The notes under the pieces were generated by a model that ran no database searches, was not told where the DNA came from, and saw only the letters and a list, made by a program, of their open reading frames with translations. Source: Discostella pseudostelligera (taxonomy: Eukaryota; Bacillariophyta; Thalassiosirophyceae; Thalassiosirales; Thalassiosiraceae). From it: DNA of 10,265 nt. The position numbers and the translations under genes are program-made. The stretch covers positions 1 to 10,265 of the forward strand of contig JALLBK010001283.1 in assembly GCA_036940085.1 (NCBI GenBank). Reading direction: 5' to 3'. Below, piece after piece: positions 1 to 9,623 of the stretch. The first letter of the stretch is position 1. Each line of letters begins with the position of its first letter.

Positions 1-1776
1 GCAGGTAGCAGCGCAGCGTACTGAGACTATGCAACGTGTTGAAAAGGGTGTGGTCTGGAACATTATCAAGGGCAAAGATTCTTCATGCCTCTTGCCTCTG
101 CATCGATTGTGAAGGAACTGATGCTGTCAAACGCGGATCCAAGGCAGCTATGAAACTATCCAGCAGATGCTACTTAAATCTACAACTAATACTGACAACA
201 ACGGCAGCGACGAGGATAGTATAACGCAACTTGTCTTGGAGCAAGATGACAAAGATCGGGATGCCGACAACCGCGCTCTTGCCAAGTTAAGGAAAATATT
301 TGACATCTTGACCAGCCATCGAAGTATGACATGTGTGTAGCTGGCTTGCCTTGTCTGACAAGTTCTCGGCTGGAGGATCCCAAGTACAAATGCGTCAGTG
401 TGAATTGTGAATGTGGATTCGACAAGCTGTGGAAGCATGGTGTGCATCCTAGAATATTCAAGTGTGAATATGATGAGACGAAGCGTCAGTGGGTTGACAA
501 GATACACCCAAACAGCATGTTAGGAAAAGATATTTGGTTAGAGACCATCGAATGGCGTGACTACGCATACAAAACAAAGCCTACTCTCGCCACACATGCA
601 AAGGAAGTTGCACGTCAAGCATGAGCTGCTCGCCCTTCTGAGGAAGATGATTTAGATTACGAACAATCAAACAAGAATGCATCAGCAAGGAATTTGGTGT
701 TGGAGACGATGCGTGGCACATTGGTAGATTATCTTGATCACTTCGAGCGGAAGTTGACTGGACACATTGAGCATCGTAATCTTGTTTCTTTGGAGCATAG
801 GAGTAGGCTGATTTATGCTCATCACTCGCGGCCATTGATATTTGCACGTGATATAGATTTTGCAGAAAATGGCACGATAGAGAACTTGACAAGGTTCAAT
901 TGGAGCACTGGGTGACGAAGCTATACTCTGTTCATATCTGTCTCCTCCTTTCTCGAGGTCGATACTTCCCTATATGGAATGATGAGGTTGGGGAATTAAA
1001 CATTGGTGCAGAAGTAACTGTGAATGGAGAGCGTCTTGTGGGTGACGATAGCGAAGATAATGATCAACATGAACTCGTATTGGGCAAAGGTGACAAAGCG
1101 TATTGGAGCCGACATGTACCAAGAAGAAGATTGGAATGGTGAATTACATGAGGTGGCTCGCTCGTCACTTCAACTCCGTCATAGACATACAATATGTTGC
1201 GGCCATATAACCGATGACAAGTTGCATGACCACTTTGCAATGCAACAATTCACTACCACCGAGAAGTACATTTCAGATCATTACCCAAATGACTTGATCG
1301 ATGGGAGAATTAAGAGATTGTATCAACATTCTGATAATGCCTCCCAACATTTCAAGAGTACCGGCGCCATATAATATTTCACTTCACTCGTCAAAGAAAG
1401 GGGTGGGCCATCGGAATGCATGTATGTCTACTCCTTCGCACCAGGTCATGGAAAGGGCGTCTTCAATAGTGTTGGCGGCGCCATCAAGAACAAGGTGCAT
1501 TCATTGATCAAAGGTACGTAGACCATGACAGAGGGGATATCCGGTGTTGATTCCGGTTACATCAACGATGTTGACGACGTCTTCAAAGCTATCAAGCACT
1601 GGCTGTCCGCTGCAAAAAGACGTAGCACTATTAAACTAAATATAGTGTTAGACTTTATTATTTCCCTGCTACTAAATATTCCGTGTCATATAATGACTGC
1701 GATTCAAGAATCGCGAAGTCTATTGATAAAAATGAACTTGATGCAAATTAGATGGTCTGCTTTCACTGATCACTGA
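1..1776 (+). pseudogene. Decayed RNase H-fold (DDE-like) transposase-like gene, open at left edge
   Basis: Protein-like sequence runs through this stretch but is broken. Reading frame 2 is coding-like to about 330 and holds an acidic Asp/Glu-rich segment near 200-270. Frame 1 takes over from about 331 and has in-frame stops at 622-624 (TGA), 913-915 (TGA), 1372-1374 (TAA) and 1519-1521 (TAG). Between about 890 and 1100 frame 3 looks better (QLEHWVTKLYS), which implies a frameshift there and another back. Recognisable motifs are a Cys motif (VNCECGF, about 400-420), ARDIDFAEN (about 847-870, likely first catalytic Asp), QHSDNASQHFK (1324-1356, likely second Asp) and PGHGKGVFNSVGG (about 1435-1473). 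From memory, an SDxAxxxFK motif followed by GHGKGxxDGxGG marks a widespread uncharacterised eukaryotic family that looks like a transposase. Protein similarity continues straight across the stops, so these look like mutations rather than introns. Function is presumably lost. The family name is not certain. Confidence 0.6.
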
Positions 1777-1807
1777 CCATTCACTCCTCCCTCACCCAGC
1801 AAGATCT

Positions 1808-3562
1808 CTAGCCAAGTGCCCTCTCTTCTGTCATGGACGCGAACACAGGAAGGCGACCAGTACACTTCTCCTTCTTGCCGAGGGTCGCTAGAAAAGATTC
1901 CCAGATGTCAAAGACTGCACTGTACTCGACATATGGGAACAGATAACTTGTCTGGTTCCTCACCTCAGGTGGTAAAGCGAGGTGGCCAGTATCCGACGTC
2001 CTTGGCCACATCCAGCCAAAACGGTGCACCTGCAAGTTTTTGAATTCTTTGATTGGCAGCTCAGGAGCATATACTTTGCCCTGGAGGACTGCAATCCTAT
2101 GCTCAAGAATGGCCCCAATGATTCGGTGTCCTTCGGGCGTGTCGATGGGGGGCTGCATGAACATGTAGGGCTTGGTGACAACGCTAAGATATGATGATTT
2201 GAACTCATCATTGTTGGGCATGCAGAAGAGTGCACCACTGTTGTCGTTGAGGTGCCAGGGGCCATCGCCATCATTCTTCTGCAACTTGTTGTCGTTGGGG
2301 TGCCAGGGGCCATTGCCATCATTCTTCTGCAACTTGTTGCGCTTCTCGCTCTTCTTGGTGGGCCAGTCTGAAATGCAGACGTCAAACCAGCTGTTGTACA
2401 TGAGGTGTGGGTACAAAGCAGGAAGTAGTAATAAACCAGGCCAGGCATAAGGAGACATGAAAAGTCCAAAGCACGCAGGCAGATAGTAAGGAGAGAAATG
2501 AATCACTCACACCGAGTGGTTGCAGCTCTGCTTCCCTTTCGCATCAAAAGCCACCTCGTGAGCAACCACAATACGGCCACTTCCTACTCCACCTTCATCC
2601 TTCCCCTGCACCTCCTCTACAACATGATTATTCTGCGAGTCAAGGAGGCGGAAGTAGTAGGTACCAAGCACCTTGCACTGCTGAGAGAATAGGCCTAAGC
2701 GGGTCAATGAAAAGGAAAAGTTAGAATGGTATCGATGTTACAGAAAACAGTGGTAGCATCAACAATAGAATCATGAAAAGAAAAGCATTGATGGTCACTT
2801 ACAGTTCTTTCGATCTTCATAGATGAAATCAGCACGACAGTCCCCACCGCCTTTGTTTCGAATCTTCACCACCATACTTAGTACCTGGAGCTCGGAGAGT
2901 GCGAGTGCTCCACCACCACCACTGACAGCGCCTGAGAAAGTCAGTTTGGCTGTACCTTCTTCTGGAGACTTCGTGTGATTGCACACTAAGTCATACGAAT
3001 CCGACCATACTCGTTTGTCGTCGTAGTCGTCATTGTTGTTCAAGCAACGATTCTTCCAAATAAAGGAAGAAATGAGTGGGTTGACTTGACCGATCGACTT
3101 GAGATGATGGTGGAAGAGACGATCAGGGATCACCATATTATCCTCACCCTTGGTACAATGTTGAAGGATGACGATATCATCGCTGCTATCGGAAGCGATA
3201 AGTTGTGGATCATGAAGGTGTTTGCATTTGTAGTCATAAGGGCTGCGATGATGATCGTTGCAGAGGAGGGTATGATTAGAAAGAGCATCACAGACATGAT
3301 GACATAATACAGAATAAACCGGCTCTACTCACCAATACCCAGTCATGAGCAGAATGGGGCAAGGCCACATCAAGATGTCGTCGGCGCCATTTACATGTAT
3401 TACAACACGCTCCTCCTCGGAATGCGCGTAGTGGCAATTGCCGCGATATCTACAAAATCCATACATGGTGATGTTGCGGCACATCTCTGTCCTGTAATTG
3501 GGAGGTACACTCGCCGCAGCTGCAGTCGTCGTAGTCGGGGTGGGAGAGGAAAAGGACGGCAT
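1808..3562 (-). CDS. Tandem CCCH zinc-finger protein (TTP-like fingers), four exons
   Basis: My model is join of exons 3562-3333, 3242-2803, 2694-2511 and 2390-1808, giving 1437 nt and 478 residues with stop TAG at 1810-1808. Introns are 90, 108 and 120 nt, all GT-AG, with donors GTGAGT, GTAAGT and GTGAGT and matching phases. Finger 1 is C28-x8-C37-x5-C43-x3-H47 with lead-in YRTEMC, close to the tristetraprolin-type lead-in. Finger 2 is C68-x8-C77-x5-C83-x3-H87. Its second Cys exists only after intron 1 is removed: TG|C replaces the unspliced TGG Trp. The ATG at 3562 is the first in frame after a TAA near 3680. Such tandem fingers usually bind AU-rich single-stranded RNA and control mRNA decay; that role is inferred here. 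The lead-in of finger 2 (ILMWPC) departs from the family. Residues about 140-220 look beta-rich with a Gly run. The remaining roughly 250 residues are not recognised. Exon 4 contains a 16-residue tandem duplication. Confidence 0.85.
2241..2336 (-). repeat. Two-copy 48-bp tandem duplication inside CCCH gene exon 4
   Basis: Two adjacent 48-bp units (2241-2288 and 2289-2336) differ at only two positions that I can see (2250/2298 and 2266/2314). The period is a multiple of three, so the reading frame is kept and the protein carries a doubled 16-residue unit with the core LQKNDGxGPWHxND. The near identity points to a recent duplication. Confidence 0.9.
3243..3332 (-). other. Intron 1 of the CCCH gene, splitting zinc finger 2
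   Basis: This 90-nt GT-AG intron begins GTGAGT (3332-3327) and ends GCAG (3246-3243). It interrupts the codon of the second zinc ligand of finger 2 in phase 2. Joining TG with C makes Cys, restores CX8CX5CX3H and continues with PYDYKCKHLHD. Without splicing the codon reads Trp and a TGA follows immediately. Confidence 0.9.
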
Positions 3563-3751
3563 GTATGGAAGACCACCAGAACTTCCATTCCTGCTGCTAA
3601 CACCGCGCGGTCTGGCTTGGGGGGCATGATGGTGATGGCGATGGTTCGTCTGGTGATGGCGATGATGGTAAGAATGGAATGGACGGAGTTAGAGATACGA
3701 GGCGAGAGGGCAGTAAAATGACATCGATGCCACCTCAAGTCTCAAGCGACA

Positions 3752-3782
<31 letters not shown>

Positions 3783-4087
3783 ATCGACGAATCGAGGACT
3801 ACGACGATGACAATGACGACGCACCGATTGCTTCGCAAAACTCACCATACGATTTCCTCCTCTTCCTCGCCCTACGTTCCTGTTTCGGCCTGCGATCATT
3901 GTTTCCAGCAAAAATGACAATGTGATGTAGGAGTATTGTGCGACATCTTCTATTGAGAGAGACGAGAGAGAGCGCAGTGGTGGTGGCCTGCCCATCCTGC
4001 CTACCATCTAGAGATGATATCCGAGGAAGATATGGAAAAGATCTTGTTGTCAATTCATACTAACTCCATCGTATGTGGAAAAGCTAC
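3563..4087. other. 5' flank of the CCCH gene, no supported gene
   Basis: This holds the presumed 5' UTR and promoter of the minus-strand CCCH gene. Directly upstream of its ATG the same frame stays open for about 40 codons (His/Gln/Arg-rich, then Gly/Ser-rich) back to a TAA near 3680. The N-terminus could therefore be longer if an upstream exon splices in, but I found no convincing donor. The (ACG)10 tract lies here. Short open frames in this stretch are low complexity and look non-coding. Confidence 0.5.
3752..3781. repeat. (ACG)10 trinucleotide microsatellite
   Basis: Ten perfect ACG units span 3752-3781, with degenerate cgac-type units on both sides. The tract lies about 190 bp upstream of the CCCH start codon. 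On the minus strand it reads (CGT)n and could encode a Ser run in one frame, but that frame ends in a stop right after the tract, so I treat it as non-coding. Confidence 0.95.
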
Positions 4088-4187
4088 GGCTGGGAGACAT
4101 CGGAAATGCCGTCTCTTCTGATGTCACGTCTTGCTGTGTCCTCTGCATTTCTGGCTGACACGACATTTCGGAGACTCCCTCCCAGCC
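4088..4187. repeat. Imperfect inverted repeat (hairpin) between the CCCH gene and the transposon
   Basis: The left arm at 4088-4112 begins GGCTGGGAG and ends GGAAATGCCGT. The right arm at 4160-4187 reads, in reverse complement, GGCTGGGAG, then a short unmatched stretch, then CGAAATGTCGT. The outer 9 bp match perfectly and the inner 10 bp carry one mismatch, which a G-U pair would tolerate in RNA. The loop is about 47 nt. It could be a foldback or MITE remnant, a structured RNA, or chance. Confidence 0.5.
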
Positions 4188-4687
4188 TTACATTTTCTGC
4201 ACTAGCTAAGGACCCGTCCCGCAGTCACCTGACCGGTCATCGCGATAAAATTCGAAATGCGTCTGTCGTCGCATGCTGAGTTTAAAACCACTTCTGTGAG
4301 TTGTGAATCATCTCTACGACAGAAACGACGGTGTCTCATTTTTGTGTCGCATCAATGAGCTTCATTCAATGGAGCGACGCATTGAAAATTTTGAAATTCT
4401 GTGGAGCTGATAGCGGGAAGGGTCTAGGCTCCCACTTGATGCTGGTGGAGGGCTTTTGTAATTTCTACTTAACAGCGAAACAAGGAGTTTGATCCTAAAT
4501 TTCAAATGGTAGCCTAAGTAAATAATCTAAATTACCATTACTATTTATGATTCCTCTTGTTTGTTGTCGATGCTGTCATTACTTTACCCGCGCCAAAATT
4601 TCAATTGGCATACATCAAGAAACCAATTAGATGTTCCACCTGAAAATGAAAGAAGATGAATCAATGACAGCGTCCGACCACACACAA
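4188..4687. other. Non-coding stretch upstream of the transposon gene
   Basis: No supported gene lies here. The stretch becomes AT-rich from about 4450 to 4560. A weak imperfect palindrome is centred near 4360, with arms containing tgtcgcatcaatgagc and gcttcattcaatggagcgac. It should contain the left end of the transposon, but no terminal inverted repeat matching the right side was found by eye. Confidence 0.45.
4590..4628. promoter_or_regulatory. E2F-like site and an inverted pair of CCAAT boxes upstream of the transposase
   Basis: GCGCCAAA at 4590-4597 is, on the minus strand, TTTGGCGC, which matches the E2F consensus TTTSSCGC. CAATTGG (4602-4608) and CCAATT (4623-4628) form an inverted pair of CCAAT-type boxes. 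The cluster lies about 130-170 bp before the transposase ATG, a reasonable promoter distance. Binding is inferred from consensus match only. Confidence 0.4.
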
Positions 4688-4759: not shown

Positions 4760-7700
4760 ATGTTGTCTTCATATGCAGCAACGAACAAGAAGCCAAAGTT
4801 CCAGCGGAAACAAACAGCGGAACAGAAGCAGAAGCAAGCGCAAAAGTTCAGTGCAACAATGGCAAAGAAGCGGGCGGCCAAAGAGGCCACAATGGTGCAG
4901 AGTAAACGACAGAAGGAGGAAAATAAAAGGGCCATTTTTTTCTCTGCACGTAAACAAAAGACTGTGGTCGACGATAGCACAAGCTCTGAGATTCTCAATT
5001 GCCATGTCCAAGAAACTTCCGATGAAGGATGTGATGACGTAACATTTCCTACGAGCGTCGTTCATTGTGACGATGATGTTTTTGTCGTTGACAACCCTCC
5101 AATACCAGTCAAGCTGCATACAGCAGATATTGTAACCAATCTTGATTTCAACGATGAAGATGATGAATGTCTACAGAGCGATGATGACGATGTCGACGAC
5201 GGGGATGAAAATAGTGGTGTGCAACAGGATTATGTACGGGCCATCCAAAAACGTTTGCAGGTGGAAGTATCCGGTGATCATGATGGCCCGCAATGGTTAT
5301 TAGATGAATTGAAGAGAGATCTTTTTTGGATCCGGAGTCATCGTGCTCATTTTATTGTTTCCAAACTCGGCAGACTTGAAAAGCACCCTGAAGCATTCTA
5401 TCGAGATGTATATGTTTGGCTACCCGATGTGCAATGGTCAGATGCAAATAAAACATTTATGCCTTGTTGTCCAAACTGTAAGTCCAACAAGCACGTCGGC
5501 CCACACGGCTTCCGGAGTAATCATTTTGGTAGAGTGGTTGTCACTTTGTCTACTACATACTATGTGATGACATGGCGATATATTTGCCATGAATGCCGAA
5601 AAGAATCAACGCAGGCAAAAGAAACAATCGAAAGTATTGCAACAGACAAAGGGCTGAGCATAGAAGTAAGTGACAGTGGCCGACAATACACATTCATGGG
5701 CTGGGACAAGCGAATCTTACCGCTGTTCAAATACGGGAGAGGATCAAAATTTCCTGCATTCTTAACATGGAAGGCCGGAGTAGATTACTCTGTTATTCAT
5801 TTAATGCGCCTCCTATTTCTTAGAGGCGTTCGACCGGATGGTTTCGCCACTATATTGCTTGAACAACATGCAAAGAAATTCACAGAACTGGGAATTGAGC
5901 ATGAGAACGAAATGCTGCGCAAAAGCAGAGGCATATCAACACCAAAGAAAGAAATGTTAGGCGAATTTGGTGATAAACGCAAGTATCGTGGGCTGGTACC
6001 AACGGGGAGATATGTGCAACATGTTTTTATAACTCACAGTAAAATGATTGCGCCGTACATGGACAAGGAGGTTAAGAAGCGTGGCGCCAGATCACTTCAT
6101 TGGGACGTATCATATAAAGAAGCAAAGCATCTGTGTCGATACCGCGGCCAGCCAGTGTTCAAAGGATTAGTCACGGGGATGAATGAGGTTGGAGAAGTGC
6201 GCATGCAGTTTCATGTGTACAGTGACAGTCATGAACAGATGAAGAGTGCACTCGAAGCTTTCAAGCGAACAACACAAAATCTTGGCTTACCTGAAGTACA
6301 ATTCTTCTTCACCGACAATCCTGCTGCAGATAAGCAATTCTACATGCGCATGTTGCCCTCTTTGCAAATGCAACAAAATGTTCTTGATTCAATTGTTACG
6401 CCCTCGACAAAAGAGCACCATAGCACCAGTCCAAGTGGTATACCTATTATCCCTTCATATCCATACGACCTGCTTGATGTACGAATTGCTACTTCCGGTG
6501 ACGACATTGCAAATACTGTGCGGGCACTCATCGAGGAAGCCGTCGACTCAAGAATTGGTTTAGATGCTGAGTGGAATGTATCCATTGATTCCAGAGGGAT
6601 ACAAAGTGGAGTATCAAAAGTGCAAATAATTCAGATTGCTTACCGTTCTCAAGATGACAAGGTGAAGGTACTCATTTTCAAGGTGGGGAAACTAAGAAAA
6701 CTGCCGCAACGACTAGTATCGTTGCTTAGTAACAACACCATGCATATTTTTGGTGCCAATGTCAGTGCGGATCTCGTGAAAATCGCAAAAGATTTTAACA
6801 TAGATGAAATGAAAGAGGTCGATCAGAAAGCACGTTGTAATGTCCATAATCTTGGAGTCTTCGCCAGGAACAGGGACGTTGTCACCGACGGGGGCGCATC
6901 ACTAGAGTTGATTGTCAAGTCTGTTATGAATATCTCACTGGACAAAACCCTACGGTGTTCAGACTGGGGTGGAGACTTGTCAGCGGAACAGATCAAGTAT
7001 GCAGCGATTGATGCTGCCGTATCTCTAGAGGTAGGAGAGAAACTACAACAAATGCCGGATCTAACTCGTAGATTGATGCCTCACGAGCTGGTCCCTGGAA
7101 GAAAGGTTGATTTAATTCCCATGCACGGGAGGGCTGCATACATGGCAACTCGGGCTGCGTCCGCAACGATTGAGCAGAGCGACACTTGCAGCTGTCCACC
7201 TGGCATGGTTTACGGAAAGCGCGGACACATTAAGATGAAAGCTGGTAGATCAAGCTATGTCATCAAGCTCGACAAAATATACTCACCTGGTTTGATCGTC
7301 CCAAACTACTTCACTGAAGGAAGTGCATCATCTGTGACCGTCAATGACATTCCTCAAGGTCACCATATCATAGTGCCAATATCGATGATCAAAGAACATG
7401 TTGACAGTTTTGATGTAAGAGCCACACCGCTCAATAGCGATGAGGAACTTGTTGGTATATCACTCCCTGCTTCTGATCTTGTGGATGAAGATAACACGGG
7501 AACAAATTTGTTAGATGAAGACGCCAATGACAGAGAACATATTGATGACGAGTTCGACGCTGGTGTTATGCCTGATGAGAATGGCAACAAAGCAATTGAT
7601 GAAGACATCGATGACTTCACAGCTACGCTTACCTCGCAGGAGATAGATCACCTACAAATGGCCATCTTCGACACAAAGAATGCTTTGTCGGGGCGTGCAT

Positions 7701-9389
7701 TGCTACAATCAGACCATCTAAGTCCTCCACCCAATCCCAAGCATATCAGGGATAAGTACTCGGTTGTGCTTGGGGATGCATTTCATGCAATGGACCGCGC
7801 CAAGGTTCCAACCAAACATGAAGCAAAGAAAGCATATTTTGTAGCATTATCGGAGGCGTTCCTAATTTGGAATCCAGAAAAGTTGGAAGAATTAACAAGC
7901 AAGATGAGGGAGAGTGGGATGCAAGATGAAGAAGTGAAACTCCAACGATACTTCAATAAGTGCCTGTTCTGTGATTGTGTCGACCGACACTGCCCGGCGC
8001 CATCAATTCTCTACTGGAGGGTACGAGCAGTCTTCGTGTCATACGGCGGTATTATTGACAGTAAATCAAAAGAACCTCTATTCAACGCCAGGGCATGGCA
8101 AAAGGCGGACAATCTACTGAAAGAGATCCTGGAAGGGTATTACTCTGATCCGCCCGGCATAAACCTGTACACAACAAGGCTGCGAAGCAATGGATCCGAA
8201 ATGCGGAATAAATATGGAATGGAAATGATTGAGTGCTCGCGGGGTACCAATAGAACAGAAGGATATCACAAGAACATTACCACAACATTTGGTACATGGA
8301 ATGCAGGCATCGAGATGTCTGATTGCCTCTTGCGTGAAAAGCGGAATCAGCACAATCACAATGTGGCTGTAGCCCGCAGACCAGGATATCCCAAAACAGG
8401 ACACAGCGACACGTGGTTGGATGAGGAGTATCAGAGACTAGTGGAGAAGAACCATGGGGTGCACATCTATCCTGGATTGTGTAACACGAGTGATTATAAA
8501 CAGACGAATGAGAGCTTCGACACGATACCCTTGCAGACAAAAAGATTGAATGATGCAGTGACTGCACGGTTCAACGAATTAGGAAAACCGAACCTACCTC
8601 TAACATCAGATCAGCGATACCTCTGCAAAGCAATGGGATCTCTACTGCCATTGCTTCCATTTTCGGGAGAGAAAGAATTCAAGACGTATGCAAAGTTTGT
8701 AAATGAATCAGGCTACCCGAAAGATGACTACGAGGCAGCGATAGCATGGTGCAAGTTTGTCAATGGAATTGATATACTTCCAAAACTTCCGTCTCACCTG
8801 AGAATTCATCGAGATCGTTGGGATCGTAATCAGCGAGTAAAAGAATGCGTCGAGAGAATATCAACAATAAATGCAAGTTTGGATGAGCTGAATGCGAAGA
8901 TCACACCACAATATCAAACAATCCACACATGTGCACGGAATGACACGTACTCATCTGAAGCCGCTCAGTCTCTCTCGTCACCTTCCAGATTGTGTCAATA
9001 TCCTGCTGCTCAGTCTATCTCATCAACTTCAATATTGCATCAATATCCGGCATGGTGTTATCAGATGGTTATGCCAGGAAGTATGTTCCCGACACCATCA
9101 CCAGAGGCATTTGTGCATAGTGACTATCGCGGGATGACTGTCGCAGGTATCTCTATTGGTGCCAGTTGAGGAGATGCAGGGGGATACAAGCGGAATGGGC
9201 ACACCGAGGAGGGGAAGAGACAAATGCACAAGAAAGTCTCGACGATGCGGATTGTGTATGCGATACGCGGATGAATCTGAGTCGAATATGTTCACCTGCA
9301 AAGGCCGATGGGGTGGTAAGAATGGTGGATCCAGAGCATGTCAGTATTTCACATGCGATGGGAAAAAGAAAAACATCATATCCGTATAA
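4760..9389 (+). CDS. DUF6729-like DDE transposase with embedded DEDDy 3'-5' exonuclease
   Basis: The unspliced frame is 4760-9169 (1469 residues). My preferred model joins 4760-9080 with 9166-9389 (1514 residues). Order of parts: basic Lys/Gln-rich N-terminus (8-70); acidic linker (101-155); zinc ribbon CCPNC (236-240) and CHEC (276-279) with the following segment to about 380, resembling DUF6729; first Asp D449 (SLHWDVSYKEAKHL); second Asp D519 (FFFTDNPAADKQF); DEDDy exonuclease about 570-775 with D602 and E604 (GLDAEWN), D671 (GANVSADLVKIAKDF) and Y747/D751 (YAAIDAAVSLEV); a beta-rich part (780-880); acidic stretch 907-953; Cys cluster C1068, C1071, C1073, C1078; presumed third acid E1167 (GTNRTEGYHK); and a C-terminal Cys finger in exon 2. 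All exonuclease ligands of the WRN/RNase D family are present. The ATG is the first after an in-frame TAG at 4688 and has A at -3. DDE chemistry and exonuclease activity are inferred from motifs. The assignment of E1167 is the least certain. Confidence 0.85.
6467..7084 (+). other. DEDDy 3'-5' exonuclease domain inside the transposase
   Basis: Residues about 570-775 carry the three exonuclease motifs in order: Exo I DxE at 6563-6571, Exo II Asp at 6770-6772, and Exo III YxxxD with Tyr at 6998-7000 and Asp at 7010-7012. This arrangement, with YAAIDA at the end, is that of the RNase D/WRN family rather than the DEDDh family. In other family members these residues bind two divalent metals and remove 3' nucleotides. 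All ligands are present, so activity is plausible. The domain sits between the second Asp (6314-6316) and the presumed catalytic Glu (8258-8260) of the DDE core. Confidence 0.85.
8960..9049 (+). repeat. Two-copy 45-bp in-frame tandem duplication near the transposase C-terminus
   Basis: Residues 1401-1415 (AAQSLSSPSRLCQYP) and 1416-1430 (AAQSISSTSILHQYP) are diverged copies of one 15-residue unit, encoded at 8960-9004 and 9005-9049. The period keeps the frame. The unit is Ser/Gln-rich and looks like a flexible linker before the C-terminal Cys finger. Confidence 0.8.
9081..9165 (+). other. Probable 85-nt intron joining the C-terminal Cys finger to the transposase
   Basis: The intron would begin with the strong donor GTATGT at 9081 and end with GGTGCCAG at 9165. 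Its length, 85 nt, is 1 modulo 3, which moves the frame exactly to the one encoding the Cys-rich tail. TGACT elements near 9121 and 9135 could serve as branch points. A 19-nt removal (9147-9165) would give the same frame but is too short for an ordinary intron. A +1 frameshift is the other alternative. Confidence 0.6.
9166..9389 (+). other. Second exon: C-terminal Cys-rich finger of the transposase
   Basis: The frame here reads RDKCTRKSRRCGLCMRY, then a Cys after MFT, then KGRWGG, a Cys before QYF and one more Cys, ending with TAA at 9387-9389. The spacing is C-x6-C-x2-C-x13-C-x13-C-x4-C. Basic, Cys-rich tails of this kind occur at transposase C-termini, where they probably bind zinc and DNA. 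The frame differs from the main one, so it needs splicing or frameshifting to be joined. Confidence 0.6.
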
Positions 9390-9431: not shown

Positions 9432-9623
9432 ATATTGTATCCCTTCTTTCAGCTGGTTGTTGAGTTCGTACTCAAGGGACAGTGATGTGCAGATGCGCTC
9501 ATGAAATTTGTGCATAGCTTCCGCACTGACCGAGCAACATGAGAAGTACACCCCAAGGGGGGGACCGGCCGTGGCAGGTTTTGATCTTATATTCTCCGTG
9601 CCCCCCTTGATGATAGATCCCAT
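9432..9623 (-). CDS. Exon of an unrecognised minus-strand gene (partial)
   Basis: From ATG at 9623 the frame codes for 64 residues and ends exactly at a strong donor, TAT|GTAAGTATT (intron from 9431), in phase 0. The second half looks like a real amphipathic helix (SAEAMHKFHERICTSLSLEY, then ELNNQLKEG); I do not recognise the family. Upstream the frame is a GA-rich low-complexity stretch back to a TAG near 9667, so 9623 may be the start or the frame may have slipped in the GA/G10 tracts. The next exon is unclear. An acceptor at 9296 (CCTTTGCAG) would continue in frame with about 66 codons antisense to the transposase tail. Otherwise the remaining exons lie beyond the transposon. Confidence 0.45.

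Follow-up and report, generated by a model that had tools for sequence, protein, structure and literature searches.

The window, a stretch of 10,265 nucleotides from the diatom Discostella pseudostelligera (positions 1 to 10,265 of contig JALLBK010001283.1, assembly GCA_036940085.1), carries on its forward strand an open reading frame (ORF) of 1469 amino acids. With a probability of roughly 80%, this ORF encodes the transposase of a Dada-type DNA transposon with an exonuclease inserted in its DDE catalytic core, published Dada elements having been compared by description. The features are listed below; fractions are rows of an alignment of the query and 84 homologues from one diatom-centred search, with gapped rows left out at each position, and model positions refer to an AlphaFold 2 (AF2) structure model whose numbering equals the residue number minus 204.

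4760..9169, plus strand: transposase ORF, 1469 amino acids plus stop (ORF call)
5468..5596, plus strand: N-terminal CCCC zinc-binding motif, C237/C240/C276/C279 (from conservation among covering rows)
5690..5896, plus strand: best stretch of the Pfam DUF6729 match, residues 311-379 (E 4.4e-8)
6104..6106, plus strand: D449, first aspartate of the DDE core (73/73; strand 241-247 of the model)
6314..6316, plus strand: D519, second aspartate of the DDE core (77/78; directly after model strand 311-314)
6527..7057, plus strand: DEDDy 3'-5' exonuclease domain, residues 590-766 (D602, E604, D671, Y747, D751)
7103..7396, plus strand: beta-rich domain after the exonuclease, residues 782-879 (strands within model 578-675)
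7412..7630, plus strand: linker, residues 885-957, mostly of low model confidence (model 681-693 and 706-753 with pLDDT below 50)
7775..7786, plus strand: DxxH motif, D1006 (79/81) and H1009 (81/81)
8258..8260, plus strand: E1167, third acid of the DDE core, in RGTNRTEGYH (75/75; helix 960-973 of the model)
9222..9389, plus strand: Cys-rich zinc-knuckle-like stretch past the stop, in another reading frame (in frame in relatives and in the C229 copy)
9504..9597, plus strand: 3'-terminal sequence of the element, common to four copies that diverge at the same point

The anatomy of the protein is established by several lines of evidence. Pfam places DNA_pol_A_exo1 over residues 590-765 (E 5.6e-11), which like the DUF6729 match is above cut-off, and the insert contains the D, E, D, Y and D residues as well as the fold of the DEDDy exonucleases (PF01612), its best sequence relatives in the PDB being the exonucleases of EXD2 and WRN. 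The eight catalytic residues named in the initial annotation lie where it had placed them, with D449 beginning at 6104 and E1167 ending at 8260, and the DxxH motif is a core feature that it left unnamed. The C229 copy and several relatives carry the C-terminal Cys-rich region in frame, and there it follows a CxxC...C...C pattern with no clear CCHC. Between 9169 and 9389 of the window the zinc-knuckle stretch is off-frame, which points to a frameshift in this copy or to splicing that went unrecognised.

The 84 proteins come from a database search queried with residues 150-1300, in which scoring was confined to the 7994 candidates with the most words in common. Named hits come from the diatoms Discostella, Thalassiosira, Skeletonema, Cyclotella and Cylindrotheca, the green alga Cymbomonas and one Mycena, and the relatives overall span diatoms, a green alga, several fungal groups and fish. 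The exonuclease residues are as invariant as those of the DDE core (D602 81/81, E604 80/81, D671 79/80, Y747 81/83, D751 82/83), and the CCCC motif is similarly kept among the rows that cover it (C237 65/66, C240 69/69, C276 66/66, C279 65/66). All ten residues of the DDE, DEDDy and DxxH motifs are complete in 58 of 85 rows, 22 rows have gaps only and are incomplete models, and five carry a substitution: D1006S in P0070 and P0081, D519T in P0078, a partly missing exonuclease in P0067 and a lost exonuclease site in the fungal P0084. Judged from the alignment, this ten-residue conservation is far above chance, and a chance motif match was ruled out on this ground. Within this set the eight catalytic residues of the initial annotation are nearly invariant; no protein was seen that keeps the exonuclease while lacking the DDE acids, and it is the reverse pattern that was found. 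In P0009 from Cylindrotheca closterium the segment from the DDE start to mid-exonuclease is present three times in tandem, which may be an artefact of assembly or gene modelling.

The position of the exonuclease is defined by comparison with a salmonid protein, P0158, which was reached by a third search and has a strong DUF6729 match but no exonuclease. Its motifs are D356, D424, DxxH at 451 and E617. When the part between the second aspartate and DxxH is excised from six algal and fungal proteins, what remains aligns with the entire core of P0158, and both aspartates, DxxH, the glutamate and its following histidine are invariant in all seven rows. A profile of 52 excised cores, with the fish protein left out, scores P0158 at 58.2 bits, against 4.9 for the best of 200 shuffles. 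It follows from this alignment that a stretch of about 460 residues, made up of the exonuclease, the beta-rich domain and the linker (the least identical of seven blocks compared), is by sequence an insertion between the second aspartate and DxxH. The confident AF2 model has an order of strands and helices that fits an exonuclease embedded in a DDE core, and a fold search matches the insert to the WRN exonuclease. Conservation, the fish alignment, the modelled element order and the WRN match together support the central claim of the initial annotation, that of a complete DEDDy exonuclease with a predicted active site inside a DDE core.

The initial annotation mentioned hAT elements as an example of an insertion before the final glutamate. 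The helical insertion of hAT transposases follows the C/DxxH motif and precedes the last glutamate, whereas here the exonuclease precedes DxxH, and a hAT-type insertion was rejected for this reason. The model does contain a helical stretch between DxxH and the glutamate (803-920); a Pfam scan of the 1469-residue protein gave no match to a hAT family.

Copies of the element were sought in the same assembly, which comprises 23 Mb in 963 contigs. Apart from the window copy there is a near-full copy in C229 with one stop and 52% identity, a broken copy lying in pieces in C741 and a fragment in C77. Downstream of all four transposase copies the shared sequence stops at one point, window position 9597, beyond which the flanks differ; this 3'-terminal sequence is present four times in the genome and establishes a set of copies with a common end. 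In C741 about 2.6 kb (L013 3311-5918) splits the broken copy between matches to window positions 8526 and 8531 and is probably a nested insertion. A search of viral contigs gave 58 pattern matches, with no relative among them.

Several results weigh against a Dada-type transposase with a working exonuclease. A profile of seven cores found no solved structure in the PDB at E <= 10, Pfam matches of single cores are weak (the best, to the ZSWIM1-3 RNaseH-like family, has E 0.007 and occurs in one of seven), and the best 50 rows of each fold search are all chains of exonuclease fold, so that the transposase core is unmatched to a known transposase. No terminal inverted repeat (TIR) was found, local alignments of the 3' end with the regions upstream of the four copies scoring no more than one point above shuffles; the two marginal cross-copy scores are 28 against 27. 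Scans of the copies for TIRs and target-site duplications (TSDs) gave no convincing duplication, and the 5' end is not fixed. ARAGORN and Rfam detected no tRNA or snRNA gene in the window, L012, L013 or L014, a result that a gene split by the insertion could escape; the single Rfam match (E 0.12; 22.7 bits, gathering score 45) was taken as chance. The 3' flanks are not multicopy in the assembly, unlike those of published Dada elements with defined ends: they are single-copy in three cases, including the stretch after 9636 of the window, and in C77 too except for a far end that matches C300. Taken together, the RNA-gene scans and the 3' flanks lean against a small-RNA gene as the target of the window element. 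Finally, in a fungus-centred search the exonuclease active site is lost in 42 of 49 proteins.

Candidates for the ends were considered and set aside. Inverted matches near the ends are of 7-8 bases and at chance level (8 bases at 4596/9502, 7 bases in C229), and the regions upstream of both long copies (window 4590, L012 about 3755) share only the 9-mer CGCGCCAAA, which resembles an E2F site and occurs at about chance frequency; neither was accepted as an element end. The TSD 12 rows near sequence starts are an edge artefact of the scan. The segment 4209-4424 was likewise rejected as the 5' end, since it is a distinct repeat that has inverted ends of its own and recurs in C52. The window copy and that in C52 (L016 2740-2990) are near-identical, differing mainly by a 38-base gap, and the repeat has 12-base inverted ends, GACCCGTCCCGC and GCGGGAAGGGTC. 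The C52 copy has CTAG at either side and follows a tRNA-Val gene at a distance of 64 bases, and the repeat looks like a small non-autonomous transposon.

The ORF could instead be a host gene or a chance fusion, a DUF6729 protein joining two unrelated nuclease folds and devoid of transposase activity, as might fit the mere four copies, all diverged, with 5' end and TSD undefined. Such an origin is however disfavoured, and indeed very improbable, given the single sharp 3' end common to four different flanks, the decayed copies in the same genome, the invariance of the DDE and DxxH residues, and relatives that reach from diatoms and a green alga to several fungal groups and fish.

The fungal proteins that have lost the exonuclease site bear on what the insert does. 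These 42 retain the DDE and DxxH residues in all parts that their gene models include, with one exception, and exonuclease catalysis is therefore not needed throughout the family. The coupling of nuclease and DDE core that the initial annotation had put forward is accordingly looser than implied. The dead group may be compatible with an insert that also, or mainly, grips DNA. In one version the insert serves mainly as structure or as a nucleic-acid clamp on end or target DNA, with catalysis an accessory dropped by some lineages, a possible but rather doubtful account. In the model of the exonuclease-dead protein P0102 the WRN-exonuclease fold persists, but as 7 of its 37 alignment rows are catalytically intact these may have steered the model. 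Against this version, mean identity within the dead group is 0.343 for the insert and 0.605 for the DxxH-to-E part, as expected under weaker constraint, and the DEDDy residues of the diatom-centred set vary as little as the DDE acids, an argument for a catalytic role in those proteins. A lineage-specific version, held tentatively and at somewhat less than even odds, has the insert primarily as a structural DNA-gripping module whose catalysis survived in proteins of algae, Mucoromycota and some Agaricales and was lost in Mycena, Marasmius, Lentinula and their relatives, which would spread with a pseudo-exonuclease.

Dada transposases are described as having a DDE core with DxxH, an N-terminal CCCC and a C-terminal CCHC finger, no TIRs but short sub-terminal inverted repeats, TSDs of 6-7 bp and, where ends are known, insertion into small RNA genes, according to the consulted portion of Kojima and Jurka (2013, PMC3706591). 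A DEDDy exonuclease between the second D and DxxH was published in the same work for Dada of Laccaria bicolor and Ectocarpus siliculosus, together with the proposal that it processes 3' ends; the elements concerned are Dada-1_LB/-2_LB and Dada-1_ES, the text naming both species but, in that portion, not which Laccaria family. The initial annotation had supposed that the architecture might exist in databases without a described mechanism: it does occur in relatives, but it was not undescribed, both arrangement and 3'-end processing having been published in 2013. The window protein resembles these elements in DxxH after the second D, the N-terminal CCCC, the exonuclease position and the absence of detected TIRs. 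It differs in its diatom host, in a C-terminal zinc knuckle that is out of frame, and in having no demonstrable small-RNA-gene target, TSD or 5' end. Exonuclease-free Dada proteins (zebrafish Dada-U6_DR, as given in that work, and the salmonid P0158) align with it over DUF6729 and the DDE/DxxH core. Their D-D spacing is 68 against 70 here, whereas the distance from second D to E is 176 in Dada-U6_DR and 193 in P0158 against 648, being shorter because the exonuclease insert is absent. The architecture is real, well conserved and already described in kind.

A mechanism can be proposed on this basis. An RNase H-like DDE core cuts and joins DNA, and that formed by D449, D519, E1167 and DxxH at 1006-1009 would do so here. 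The zinc-binding DUF6729 and C-terminal regions probably bind the element ends or the target. The WRN/EXD2-like exonuclease, where its site is intact as in this protein, would trim or resect the 3' ends that excision or insertion exposes, within the same complex. We infer this chemistry and the exonuclease step from the motifs; 3'-end trimming during transposition is quite possible, with the odds slightly against it.

The exonuclease might instead act on the host side, degrading or processing the ends of the excision double-strand break or displaced strands and so biasing repair, with no part in strand transfer. WRN and EXD2, which share fold and DEDDy residues with the insert but do not lie within a transposase, are DNA-end and repair nucleases found in repair or helicase proteins, which speaks for such a role. 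KolobokD, like the element in the window, belongs to a lineage of DDE-type DNA transposons carrying a DEDD exonuclease; as far as the part of Kojima (2022, PMC9587614) consulted extends, this is a separate DEDDh (DnaQ/TREX-like) enzyme, presented as an accessory protein apparently outside the DDE core, and was proposed to degrade DNA intermediates from the 3' end. The insert of the diatom protein, however, is embedded centrally in the catalytic core. This location speaks for a function within the transposition complex and makes a purely host-side role unlikely.

Elsewhere in the window, bases 1-4100 occur once in the assembly. Two short upstream ORFs (331-624 and 1024-1374, plus strand) gave no convincing match in a Pfam scan, and the second contains HSDNASQHFKSTG, a sequence also met in other algal repeat proteins. 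Positions 2239-2334 hold two 48-base tandem copies, 96% identical, inside a minus-strand ORF that has no Pfam match.

The present analysis adds diatoms, a green alga and further fungi to the two host species of the 2013 observation. What is new is these hosts, the placing of DUF6729, on which a literature search found no paper, as a domain of Dada-type transposases, and the exonuclease-dead group, of which no description was found in the portions consulted of the literature on Dada, with regard to exonucleases and to diatoms, and on Academ and Zisupton transposons with regard to exonucleases. This fungal group offers a handle on the role of the exonuclease, by way of the termini, footprints and target duplications of active and dead members. 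If the insert is indeed primarily structural, with catalysis retained in some lineages and lost in others, the family would be a natural active/dead comparison for the contribution of an exonuclease to cut-and-paste transposition.
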